The position numbers and the translations under genes are program-made. This document shows positions 22,495-26,417 of a stretch of 64,000 nt of DNA, piece by piece (within the stretch, counting starts at the first letter, position 1; every line of letters starts with the position of its first letter). This stretch comes from Hyphomicrobiales bacterium (GTDB taxonomy: Bacteria; Pseudomonadota; Alphaproteobacteria; Rhizobiales; JAJFHB01). The DNA is taken from assembly GCA_021775755.1 (NCBI GenBank), contig JAJFHE010000050.1, forward strand, positions 186,001 to 250,000. The letters run 5' to 3'. The notes under the pieces are model-generated. The model was not told the DNA's origin. It saw nothing but the letters and a program-made list of their open reading frames with translations, and did not search any database.

Positions 22495-22679
22495 TCCCGA
22501 CATTGCTGCGTGACCCTCGATCTGATCCGGTGTCCGGTGCGTGATGACTGGCGTCGCGTAGTCTCCGGGGTATCGAACTGGCAACGCGGCGTTGACAGGA
22601 CCCGGCCCGAACCTCCATAGCCAATGCCGGAACAGTCGCCGTGGCAATCGCGCCGCAGCATGAGTGGAGGAACAAGCAT

Positions 22680-23555
22680 TTGACCGGAGGTATCGACCAT
22701 CTCGTATTGTGCGTGCCCGATCTTGAAGAGGGCAGGCGGTTCTACGAGCGCATCGGGTTCAATATGACGCCGCTGGCGTATCATCCCTTCGGGACAGCCA
22801 ATACACTGGCTCAGGTGCAGGGGAGTTTCCTGGAGGTGCTCTCTGTGGCCGATGAAAGTCTCATTCCGCCGCATGGCGATTTCGATTTCAGCTTTGCCGC
22901 CTTTAACCGCGACTTTCTCTCCTTTGCGCCGGGATTTTCCATGCTGGTGTTTGAGTCGAAGGACGCGCGCGCGGACGAGGATCGGTTCCGCCAAGCCGGG
23001 CTCGACACTTACCGGCCCTTCGATTTCTCCCGCAAGGCGACGCTGCCCGATGGCGAAGAGGTGACGGTCGGTTTCTCGCTTGCCTTCGTGACGCACCGCG
23101 AAATGTCGCGCGCCGTGTTCTTTACCTGCGAACAGCATGCGCCGGAGCATTTCTGGAAGGCGGAGTATCAGGTTCACCCGAACACCGCGCAGACGATTGA
23201 AGAGGTCGTCATGGTGATGGCGGCGCCGACTGAGTCGATAGAGTTTTTTGTAAGTCTGTGCGGTGCGGATGCACTTGACGAAGAAAGCGGTGCGCTGATC
23301 GTCAACACGCCGCGCGGGCGCATTGTCGTGTGTACTCCGAAGGCGTTTGAAGACACTTACTCGTGCGCTTGTCCCTCGTTCCCAGAAGAAGGGCCGCGCC
23401 TTGTCGCTTTTGTGGTCGGGGTTTCGGACATAGAAACCGCGCAGCGCAAAATCCTGACATCGGGGGTGCCGAGCATTGCAAGGGGTGGCAAAGTTATCAT
23501 TTCGGGGCAGGATGCGTTTGGCACGGTTATCGTCTTCCGACAGCACTCTGCATAA
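22680..23555 (+). CDS. VOC-family (glyoxalase-like) protein
   Basis: A 291-residue protein with two vicinal-oxygen-chelate folds. The N-terminal fold opens GGIDHLVLCVPDLEEGRRFY (residues 3-22), the classic first strand and helix with a metal-ligand His, and includes FLEVLSVAD; HREMSRAVFFTCEQHAPEHFW in the middle carries further possible ligands. It resembles the Glyoxalase_3-like group found in place of true glyoxalases. TTG 22680 is chosen because GGAGG lies 9 bases ahead (22666-22670) and the next residues are the first beta strand; a GTG 13 codons earlier has no such site. Substrate unknown. Confidence 0.8.
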   Translation: MTGGIDHLVLCVPDLEEGRRFYERIGFNMTPLAYHPFGTANTLAQVQGSFLEVLSVADESLIPPHGDFDFSFAAFNRDFLSFAPGFSMLVFESKDARADEDRFRQAGLDTYRPFDFSRKATLPDGEEVTVGFSLAFVTHREMSRAVFFTCEQHAPEHFWKAEYQVHPNTAQTIEEVVMVMAAPTESIEFFVSLCGADALDEESGALIVNTPRGRIVVCTPKAFEDTYSCACPSFPEEGPRLVAFVVGVSDIETAQRKILTSGVPSIARGGKVIISGQDAFGTVIVFRQHSA

Positions 23556-23598: not shown

Positions 23599-24027
23599 AT
23601 GAGTGAACCCCAGCAGACCGGACTGGAATATCTGCGCAGTTTTGTCGACAGCAATGCCGCGCCCTTCGGCAAGCTTCTCGGCTTTCATCTGGCGGAAGTC
23701 GAGTTTGGCCGTGTCGTCTTTGAAGGCAAGCCGGACGAGACCCATTACAATCCGCACGGCATCGTACATGGAGGTTACGCGGCATCGATGCTCGACAGTG
23801 CGCTTGGATGCTGCGTGCAGACGACGCTGCCGGCGGGGCAGACCTATACGACGATAGAACTGAAGATCAATTATGTGCGGGCCATGACCGCCGAAACCGG
23901 TCTGGTACGGGCGACGGCGACGTCGATCCACACCGGTCGGCGCATGGCAACGTCCGAAGGCCGGCTTGTCGACCCAAACGGCAAGCTCATTGCACACGGC
24001 TCGACAACCTGCATGATCCTCAGTTGA
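23599..24027 (+). CDS. PaaI-type hotdog-fold thioesterase
   Basis: A 142-residue single hotdog domain. Its core NPHGIVHGGYAASMLDSALG (about 50-69) has the HGG turn and the Asp that activates water in PaaI-family acyl-CoA thioesterases, followed by TTIELKINYVR and the exit strand GRRMATSEGRLVD. The acyl group it acts on is unknown. The ATG at 23599 follows the end of the VOC gene by 43 bases and precedes the ureohydrolase gene by 12, so the three may form one transcript. Confidence 0.88.
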   Translation: MSEPQQTGLEYLRSFVDSNAAPFGKLLGFHLAEVEFGRVVFEGKPDETHYNPHGIVHGGYAASMLDSALGCCVQTTLPAGQTYTTIELKINYVRAMTAETGLVRATATSIHTGRRMATSEGRLVDPNGKLIAHGSTTCMILS

Positions 24028-24039
24028 GGGAGAGCCGCC

Positions 24040-24972
24040 ATGAATAAAGAACTGTTTTTGCCGGTACGCGGGTTTCTCGATCTGCCGAACAGTCTCGATC
24101 TGAGTGCGGCGGGCGCTGCCGTCGTCGGCATACCGTTCGACATGGGAGTGTCGAATGTGCGGGTCGGATCGCGCCACGGTCCATCCTCGATCCGCGAGCA
24201 TTGCGGGATCCTCGACCGCTACGATCCGCATGAGCCGGAGCGCGATCCTTATGCGCAGCTCGGCGTCGTGGACTGCGGCGACATCGACGTGCAGCCGGGC
24301 AAGTTCGATGTGTCCTGCGACATCATTGAAGAAGCCGTAGGCGGTATGCTCGAAGCGGATACGGTGCCGGTCGCGTGGGGCGGAGACGGATCGATCTCGT
24401 TGCCAATATCCCGCGCGCTGGCAAAGCACCACGACGGCCTCGTGCTTTTGCATTTCGACGCCCATACCGACACCTATCCGGCGCCTGAACAGGGACTGCA
24501 CACGACCGGCACCACTTTCACCTATGCGGCCGAAGAACAGCGCTACGATGTTGAGCGCAGCTTTCACATCGGGCCGCGCGGGCCGAACTCCTATGCCGGC
24601 ATCTTCGAACATACACGCGCTCAGGGTTACCGGTTGATACCGGACCGCGACATGCGTGCCCGCGGTCTTGACGACGTGCTGGCGGAGGTGCGGGACGTCG
24701 TGGGCTCAAGCCCGGTTTATCTGTGCTGGGATATGGATTTCTTCGATCCCTCCTGCGCACCGGGCGTCTGCAACCCGGTCTGGGGCGGTATTTCGGCACG
24801 AGAGGGTTTCGATATCATTGCCGGGCTTGGCGGATTGAACATTGTCTGCGTCGACATCAACACGGTTTCACCGCCCCATGACGCGGCCGGCATGACGGCG
24901 CTGCTCGCCGGTGCCATGACGGTGGAGTGCTTCTACCGGATTGCGCGAAATAAAGCGCCTAACGCGGGCTGA
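24040..24972 (+). CDS. Agmatinase/arginase-family ureohydrolase with altered metal site
   Basis: This 310-residue protein belongs to the ureohydrolase superfamily (arginase, agmatinase, guanidinobutyrase), which uses a two-manganese centre to hydrolyse guanidino compounds. Most ligands are present: DAHTD (Asp140, His142, Asp144) and WDMDFFDP (Asp231, Asp233). But the first motif, normally GGDHS, reads WGGDGS: Gly117 replaces the histidine that binds the first metal. The usual Glu in the D-x-x-E-V-x-PP segment is Thr275 (VDINTVSPPHD). The fold is surely this family; the activity may be lost, changed or use one metal. It overlaps the convergent downstream gene by 14 bases. Confidence 0.85.
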   Translation: MNKELFLPVRGFLDLPNSLDLSAAGAAVVGIPFDMGVSNVRVGSRHGPSSIREHCGILDRYDPHEPERDPYAQLGVVDCGDIDVQPGKFDVSCDIIEEAVGGMLEADTVPVAWGGDGSISLPISRALAKHHDGLVLLHFDAHTDTYPAPEQGLHTTGTTFTYAAEEQRYDVERSFHIGPRGPNSYAGIFEHTRAQGYRLIPDRDMRARGLDDVLAEVRDVVGSSPVYLCWDMDFFDPSCAPGVCNPVWGGISAREGFDIIAGLGGLNIVCVDINTVSPPHDAAGMTALLAGAMTVECFYRIARNKAPNAG

Positions 24973-25942
24973 TCAGCGTTCCCGTCTCGGTATCCCAGCG
25001 CCACAGATTGTCGTTCGTGACATGCGTACCGCCGAGCCAGAGATCTATTTCGTTCAGTGTGGCATGGTCGGCGCGGCCTGACAGCACGTTGTTGCCGGCT
25101 TCCGTCAGTTCGAGCGGGGCCACGAGATAGGATTTCATGGCCGTCTCATAAAAGCGGCCGGGGAGGCCCCTGAGAAGCGGTTGCCCGGCAAAGGCTAGGC
25201 CGTCGAGGAGATGCCAGAGCACGCTGTCGCCCATGAACCGGGCGTCTTCCTGCGCGCTTACGGCACGGAACAGATCCACCGGCGTTGCGACACCGCGTTC
25301 CTTGAGCGCCGCCAGGACGGCGTGTTCCGTGCGAGAGAGACCGGTTGTTGCATCGGGCAGTTCTTCGAGCATCCGGTTCAGGGCATGGCTAAGATGGGGC
25401 AGGGCCAAAATGCCAGATGATGCGAGCGCCGCCAGGGCTTCGGGCGTTTCCGACCGGAATGCCGCCCAGGCCTGCGATGCGGTTTCTAGCGTTTCACCCG
25501 TTAACGGCTGCGCCCTTTCGCGAAGGGACAAAATTGTCTTCGGCGTGAAGTCACTCAGATAGGTATCTCCCTGCACCAGCGACAGCCGGATAACCAGGTC
25601 GCCCCGAGCGCTGAAATAATCAAGCGCCTGAATCAGTTGCAGTTGATCGTAGAGATCGTGCTCGAACCATAATTCTATCTGCTCGAACGCATCGGCGCGT
25701 GCCAGAAGCCCGTCGCGCTCTGCAAAGGAGGCTTCCGCTTCTTCCGGGTCCGCGAAACCGTTTTCGGCGAGCCAGTGGGCGCGCGCCATGGAAAGCGTTT
25801 CATGCGATGACGTCAGCGGTACGGGTCCGATGTGCAGAACATCGCGCCACGCAAGATGGGCGGCAGGAGAACCGGCTGCATCCAGAAGCTCTACGGTGCT
25901 GTCACCGTTGGTGATGATGAGTGTCTGGTGGTCGGGGGACAC
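24959..25942 (-). CDS. DUF1835-type domain protein
   Basis: A 327-residue cytoplasmic protein beginning with a short strand LIITNGDSTVELLDAAG followed by WRDVLHIGPVP, which fits the DUF1835 family of uncharacterised proteins; the C-terminal part contains a winged-helix-like stretch (SRTEHAVLAALKERGVATPVDLFRAV) and ends GTHVTNDNLWRWD as in DUF3658-like tails. The start is uncertain: GTG 25942 lies 4 bases after the queF stop and just before the first strand; the frame is open further up but overlaps queF. No biochemical role is known for the family. Confidence 0.7.
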   Translation of the reverse strand: MSPDHQTLIITNGDSTVELLDAAGSPAAHLAWRDVLHIGPVPLTSSHETLSMARAHWLAENGFADPEEAEASFAERDGLLARADAFEQIELWFEHDLYDQLQLIQALDYFSARGDLVIRLSLVQGDTYLSDFTPKTILSLRERAQPLTGETLETASQAWAAFRSETPEALAALASSGILALPHLSHALNRMLEELPDATTGLSRTEHAVLAALKERGVATPVDLFRAVSAQEDARFMGDSVLWHLLDGLAFAGQPLLRGLPGRFYETAMKSYLVAPLELTEAGNNVLSGRADHATLNEIDLWLGGTHVTNDNLWRWDTETGTLISPR

Positions 25943-25946
25943 CGGA

Positions 25947-26417
25947 TCAGCCGCGGCCGCGGTAGGACGGCACGCCCGTGTCGGGCAGCCAGAGACTGGA
26001 GGGCGGCGCGCCGGTCTGCCAGAAAACATCGATCGGCATACCGCCGCGCGGATACCAGTAACCCGCGATACGCAGCCACACAGGTTCAAGCTCCGTGGTG
26101 AGCCGCTTGCCGATATCGATAGTGCAGCCTTCGTGAAAGGCGCCGTGATTGCGAAAGGATGTGAAATAGAGCTTCAGCGACTTTGATTCCACAAGCCATG
26201 CTCCCGGCACATAGTCGATCACAAGATGCGCAAAGTCGGGTTGACCGGTGACCGGGCAAAGCGATGTGAACTCCGGGCATGTGAAGCGCGCGACATAGTG
26301 CGTATCGGGATGCGGATTGGGCACACGCTCCAGTGCCGCTTCGTCCGGCGATGCGGGGATGGACGCATCCTGACCCAGTTGTGTCAGATGATTGGTGTCG
26401 CTGCTCATCGTCTGCAT
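25947..26417 (-). CDS. queF: NADPH-dependent 7-cyano-7-deazaguanine reductase
   Basis: QueF reduces preQ0 to preQ1 in queuosine synthesis. The 156-residue protein is the short, single-domain type. It shows [19 protein letters not shown] (around residues 45-63, with the nucleophilic Cys), the QueF motif [16 protein letters not shown] for NADPH, and [12 protein letters not shown] 26417 or ATG 26408 could be used; nothing separates them. No preQ1 riboswitch was recognised upstream. The other queuosine genes are not in the window. Confidence 0.95.

Follow-up and report, generated by a model that had tools for sequence, protein, structure and literature searches.

The 64,000-nucleotide stretch of Hyphomicrobiales DNA analysed here, referred to below as the window, carries a tight same-strand cluster of three genes. 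The first encodes a VOC-family protein (22641..23555, +; Glyoxalase_3, 1.3e-30), the second a PaaI-like hotdog thioesterase (23599..24027, +; 4HBT, 2.8e-15, and TIGR00369) and the third, an open reading frame with an ATG start, a 310-residue protein of the ureohydrolase family (24040..24972, +; Arginase PF00491, 9.3e-70), here termed GGDG-type. The intergenic gaps are ~43 nt between the VOC and thioesterase genes and 12 nt between the thioesterase and ureohydrolase genes. The same three genes stand in the same order in a related genus (locus L095), with products 50, 64 and 66% identical to those of the window, and the cluster has therefore been maintained. Further downstream lies a convergent gene with a DUF1835 match (24959-26089, -), whose reading frame overlaps the end of the ureohydrolase gene by 14 nt; it is followed by a QueF-like gene and an enolase gene, both of which are also found near the L095 orthologue. 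Following the VOC gene through 289 genomes gave no clue to a substrate, its relatives adjoining unrelated genes. Five other genomes hold both a VOC and a GGDG gene, but apart from one another, and shared ancestry is a likely cause of this co-occurrence.

Both profile match and predicted structure assign the protein to the ureohydrolase fold. The PF00491 match covers the whole domain (residues 26-297) and scores 235.7 bits against a gathering score of 22, and an AlphaFold2 model (pLDDT 88.5) has the alpha/beta architecture of arginase. Comparison of this model with the PDB yielded TM values of 0.83-0.90 to solved ureohydrolases, proclavaminate amidinohydrolase being the top match at 0.90, followed by guanidinopropionase and E. 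coli agmatinase. The protein misses both NCBIfam cut-offs for agmatinase (TIGR01230, 146.1 versus 174.3; NF002564, 217.8 versus 302).

The departures from a typical ureohydrolase become clear on inspection of the motifs, which read VAWGGDG117SISLP, HFDAHTDTY, CWDMDFFDP and DIN274T275VSPP. In the GGDGS motif (residues 114-118; 24379..24393, +), codon 117 (24388-24390, within VAWGGDGSISLP) is GGA, so that Gly117 stands where E. coli agmatinase (SpeB) has His126, a ligand of the Mn-A ion; in functional binuclear ureohydrolases this histidine comes from a GGDH motif (PMC10028609). The preliminary description, which had read the motif in this way and assigned the missing histidine to the first manganese, was therefore accurate on both points, as it was in regarding the other metal motifs as intact: DAHTD (residues 140-144; 24457..24471, +) and DMDFFDP (residues 231-237) retain their ligands. 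The latter lies within the segment C229-W-D231-M-D233-F-F-D-P237 (24724..24750, +), where both Asp ligands are kept and the Ser or Thr preceding them has become Cys. Asn274-Thr275 (24859..24864, +) replaces the usual Val-Glu pair; codon 275 (24862-24864, within DINTVSPP) is ACG, confirming the noted substitution of the substrate Glu by Thr. A further change had escaped notice, namely the presence of Thr156 (24505..24507, +) at the position of the catalytic histidine, His163 in SpeB and His141 in arginase. Also newly recognised as conserved in the relatives described below are Cys229, Val243 and His176 (24565..24567, +), the last of these positions being occupied by Gln in canonical relatives.

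Relatives were collected first by scanning a single genome for each species and then by profile searches. The scan produced 17 relatives at 41-52% identity, two of them actinobacterial, and every one has GGDG together with Asn-Thr or Asn-Ala; at ~40% identity or less, all the relatives have GGDH and the Glu. Profile searches of sampled alphaproteobacterial genomes, run with a threshold of 1e-90, found a GGDG gene in 24 of 385 (~6%), every match having E <= 1e-115. Further relatives come from the same order, and others are plasmid-encoded in Methylobacterium (WP_083461112.1), Bosea (WP_265055150.1) and Caballeronia. The branch is rare in a broader sample of the phylum, where just one further genome of 399 has it besides the window's own. 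A maximum-likelihood tree was computed from 80 rows, 45 of them distinct GGDG sequences. These make up one side of a single branch (support 100/95), which is present in 100% of 200 bootstrap trees and leaves outside it the agmatinase, guanidinobutyrase, guanidinopropionase and proclavaminate enzymes of solved structure. The window gene is thus a member of a real, distinct and conserved subfamily of the ureohydrolase fold, the GGDG clade. This subfamily is probably undescribed: we found neither an account of it nor work on an H101N arginase in the open-access literature, although it may have been described elsewhere.

The preliminary description had allowed for a single decayed copy or a sequence error, should all close homologues prove to have GGDHS and Glu. 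Instead, the homologues above ~40% identity all have Gly117 and, with one exception, Thr275, and gathering them, as had been proposed, placed them in one clade. The odd motif is the only point in favour of decay or error; the closest genus has, in the equivalent cluster, a copy that is 66% identical and carries these very residues, and the same changes recur in 48 distinct sequences from many genera. We therefore consider this explanation to be ruled out for practical purposes.

Conservation was assessed quantitatively over those 48 distinct clade sequences, mostly from Alphaproteobacteria and with a median pairwise identity of 47%, using 70 canonical sequences for comparison. Only 26 positions of the window protein are invariant across the clade, and these include Gly117, Asp140, His142, Asp144, Asp231, Asp233, Val243 and Asn274. 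Decay is further argued against by the five remaining metal ligands of the DAHxD and DxDxxDP motifs (D140, H142, D144, D231 and D233), each of which is present in 48/48 sequences at that level of divergence. Met232 is likewise invariant (48/48) and Cys229 nearly so (45/48). At position 117, Gly is found in 48/48 clade sequences versus His in 70/70 canonical ones. Position 156 lacks His throughout the clade (T22 P13 N5 A5 V2 S1), whereas 69 of the 70 canonical sequences have it, and position 275, Glu in 70/70 canonical sequences, is Thr in 47 clade members and Ala in one. Three more positions have exchanged one strongly preferred residue for another: 176 (His in 46/48 and Gln in 2, versus canonical Gln in 67/70 and His in 3/70), 243 (invariant Val versus Thr in 70/70) and 274 (Asn in 48/48 versus Val in 68/70). 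Position 245, corresponding to SpeB Thr244, is variable in the clade, Thr being commonest (36/48). Read from the alignment, the clade lacks exactly one of six predicted metal ligands, together with the two residues whose part in guanidine handling is best documented, while the rest of the predicted metal site is strongly constrained.

These losses may be set against published work on E. coli agmatinase. There, His126 (window position 117) binds the weakly held Mn-a and His151 (window position 142) the strongly held Mn-b, and the minimum for activity is one Mn in the high-affinity site (PMC8125230). The H126N variant keeps ~50% of activity, while H151N abolishes it (PMC7313459). Contacts to the guanidinium group are made by H163, T244 and E274 (PMC8049259), and the activity left is 1-2% in E274A and 3-5% in H163F (PMC8125230). 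The clade would thus have dropped a dispensable metal ligand and the guanidinium grip but kept the essential ligands, and for this reason the most economical reading, we infer, is a hydrolase that works with one metal on a different substrate. One divalent metal would be kept in the high-affinity Mn-B site formed by Asp140, His142, Asp231 and Asp233; the nucleophilic water would be positioned by Asp144, and the low-affinity Mn-A site would be lost. The residues that held the guanidinium would have been replaced by a fixed set consisting of Asn274, Thr275, Val243, Cys229 and, in most members, His176; of these, His176 and Asn274 may line the pocket. Because the guanidinium-pocket residues of agmatinase have given way to this new fixed set, the substrate is probably not a simple guanidinium compound, and the enzyme would hydrolyse a C-N bond, for example of an amide, a ureide or an imine, and conceivably of a substituted guanidine, within a pathway that breaks down an imported nitrogen compound. 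Taken as a whole, the case for an active, Mn-B-only hydrolase of this kind can be given a probability of about one in two. Of the options raised in the preliminary description, one metal and another substrate, there listed separately, are thus favoured in combination, five of the six ligands being invariant and the SpeB guanidinium contacts gone; the third, a non-catalytic relative, appears to fit less well.

A somewhat unlikely alternative is that the proteins are still two-metal ureohydrolases acting on an unusual or substituted guanidine in a changed pocket. The two other Mn-A ligands, Asp144 and Asp231, are kept in 48/48 sequences, and water, Asn274 or another residue could complete the site in place of His117; that His176 takes over this role is doubtful, judging by strand order. 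A precedent of sorts exists in metformin hydrolase, whose active MetCa subunit has Asn for the catalytic His, retains all six ligands and acts on a biguanide (PMC11271267), and which shows that loss of the catalytic His alone is no proof of a non-guanidine substrate. The precedent is incomplete, since enzymes of the MetCa clade have six of six ligands where every GGDG member is missing one. Moreover, no compensating invariant histidine accompanies the GGDG motif, and both the Glu and the His are gone whose individual loss costs SpeB 95-99% of its activity.

Metformin hydrolase also supplies the model for a metal-binding, non-catalytic relative, such as a partner subunit of another ureohydrolase: its MetCb pseudo-subunit has lost three to five ligands, and the MetCb gene lies next to that of the partner (PMC11271267). 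Such pseudo-subunits therefore do occur in the superfamily, the GGDG proteins have lost residues important for SpeB catalysis, and the further ureohydrolase-family matches in the genome could provide partners. The pattern of loss is a different one, however, with one ligand of six gone and five kept, and the newly invariant residues cluster on the active-site motifs. No second ureohydrolase lies beside the window gene, and among 47 clade loci only three have one in the flanks retrieved, directly adjacent in a single case. The frequent placement of GGDG genes beside importers and hydrolases, in clusters of catabolic appearance, is also at odds with a role of this kind. We consequently disfavour a MetCb-like partner role and regard the non-catalytic explanation as unlikely.

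The window's own genome (G000, 5.47 Mb) contains an unusually large set of arginase-family matches, ~20 besides the window gene, on contigs C27, C76, C14, C43, C48, C23, C57, C38, C29, C50, C19, C33, C30 and C63. One of them (C33:107789-108691) has an in-frame TGA. Two tandem pairs are present, at L168 5812-7921 (C57) and L172 5986-8077 (C19); in each, one copy has GGDH/DCHLD and the other GGDD/EYQVD or GGDD/EFNVD, resembling the catalytic and pseudo-subunit arrangement of MetCa and MetCb.

Gene neighbourhoods elsewhere in the clade bear on the proposed one-metal hydrolase of an imported nitrogen compound. At four loci (L100, L132, L138 and the Methylobacterium plasmid) the GGDG gene lies beside an amino-acid ABC importer, a LysR regulator and an M28 hydrolase, and on the plasmid an M20 hydrolase gene overlaps its start. 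The solute-binding proteins of the importer clusters in L100, L132, L138 and L159, which come from several genera, are 69-75% identical. A carbamoylase-family M20 gene adjoins the GGDG gene in L127, and L012 and L143 have a hydantoinase or amidase gene nearby. The Bosea locus combines genes for an AtzE-type amidohydrolase, an LLM flavin oxidoreductase, a flavin reductase, a creatininase-family protein and a polysaccharide deacetylase, and that of Caballeronia has a gamma-glutamyltransferase, RidA, a class III aminotransferase and an amino-acid importer. In L019 (6881-7984) the GGDG gene is followed by a divergent ureohydrolase with GGDH and Glu intact, the only clear adjacent pair in the clade, flanked by hydantoinase and TRAP/TAXI transporter genes.

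What these loci have in common is that small nitrogen compounds would be imported and degraded, a theme that the deiminase-type genes mentioned below also fit. With hits to a gene's own locus removed, the context genes were found at 14/37 clade loci versus 4/48 canonical ones (p = 0.001), an enrichment that is suggestive but weak, since the queries had been chosen among genes at clade loci and the controls represent other taxa. The raw count of 22/37 versus 4/48 included own-locus hits and was discarded as circular. Two features of the neighbourhoods count against the reading that we prefer. They vary widely between lineages, so that no single substrate emerges from them, and some of the neighbours are guanidine-related: a gene of the arginine deiminase (ADI)/DDAH family lies 15 nt upstream of the GGDG gene in L141, genes related to it occur at L142, L017 and L020, and, together with the Bosea creatininase-family gene, these would suit a two-metal enzyme acting on a guanidine. 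The earlier remark that the gene's surroundings give no indication of arginine or agmatine holds for the window; elsewhere in the clade, the four loci just named do carry an ADI/DDAH-type gene.

GGDG genes are annotated as 'arginase family protein' or would, by similarity, be called agmatinase, yet they do not encode the residues that define an agmatinase, and on this basis the latter label is probably wrong for them. If active, the proteins would carry out a new enzymatic reaction and would serve as a natural experiment on the conversion of a binuclear arginase site into a one-metal site through three or four defined residue changes. For tracing the substrate, the nearest orthologue and several relatives carried on plasmids within compact importer clusters are convenient starting points.

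Several known systems offer points of comparison. SpeB (PDB 7lol/7lba) shares the fold, ~33% identity and the DAHxD and DxDxxDP ligands, but its Mn-A ligand His126, catalytic His163 and guanidinium-binding Glu274 are all replaced in the GGDG proteins. Closest among solved structures, in profile as well as in fold, are guanidinobutyrase and 3-guanidinopropionase of P. aeruginosa (3nio, 3nip) and proclavaminate amidinohydrolase (1gq6); these differ in keeping GGDH, the HGT histidine and the Glu, and lie outside the clade. MetCaCb/MfmAB shows that on this fold the catalytic His (in MetCa) and metal ligands (in MetCb) can be lost, but it is an obligate heteromeric pair encoded adjacently with nickel chaperones, whereas the GGDG gene usually stands alone and its product lacks exactly one ligand. 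The arginase-like protein of Trypanosoma brucei (4rhi series), an arginase relative reported to lack the normal manganese cluster, is a weak profile match, and the GGDG clade keeps 5/6 ligands. The Zn-dependent deacetylases constitute a one-metal, amide-cleaving branch and hence a precedent for one-metal catalysis on the arginase fold. HDAC, AcuC and acetylpolyamine amidohydrolase, members of this group, have the overall arginase/deacetylase fold (PMC11532494), but they are not members by sequence, having other motifs and catalytic residues, and the GGDG clade groups with the agmatinases. More tentatively, this branch of the ureohydrolases might have become a one-metal hydrolase of a non-guanidine substrate, an amide or ureide. 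Mononuclear amide-type chemistry would in that case have arisen from the binuclear arginase fold a second time, along a path separate from that of the deacetylases.
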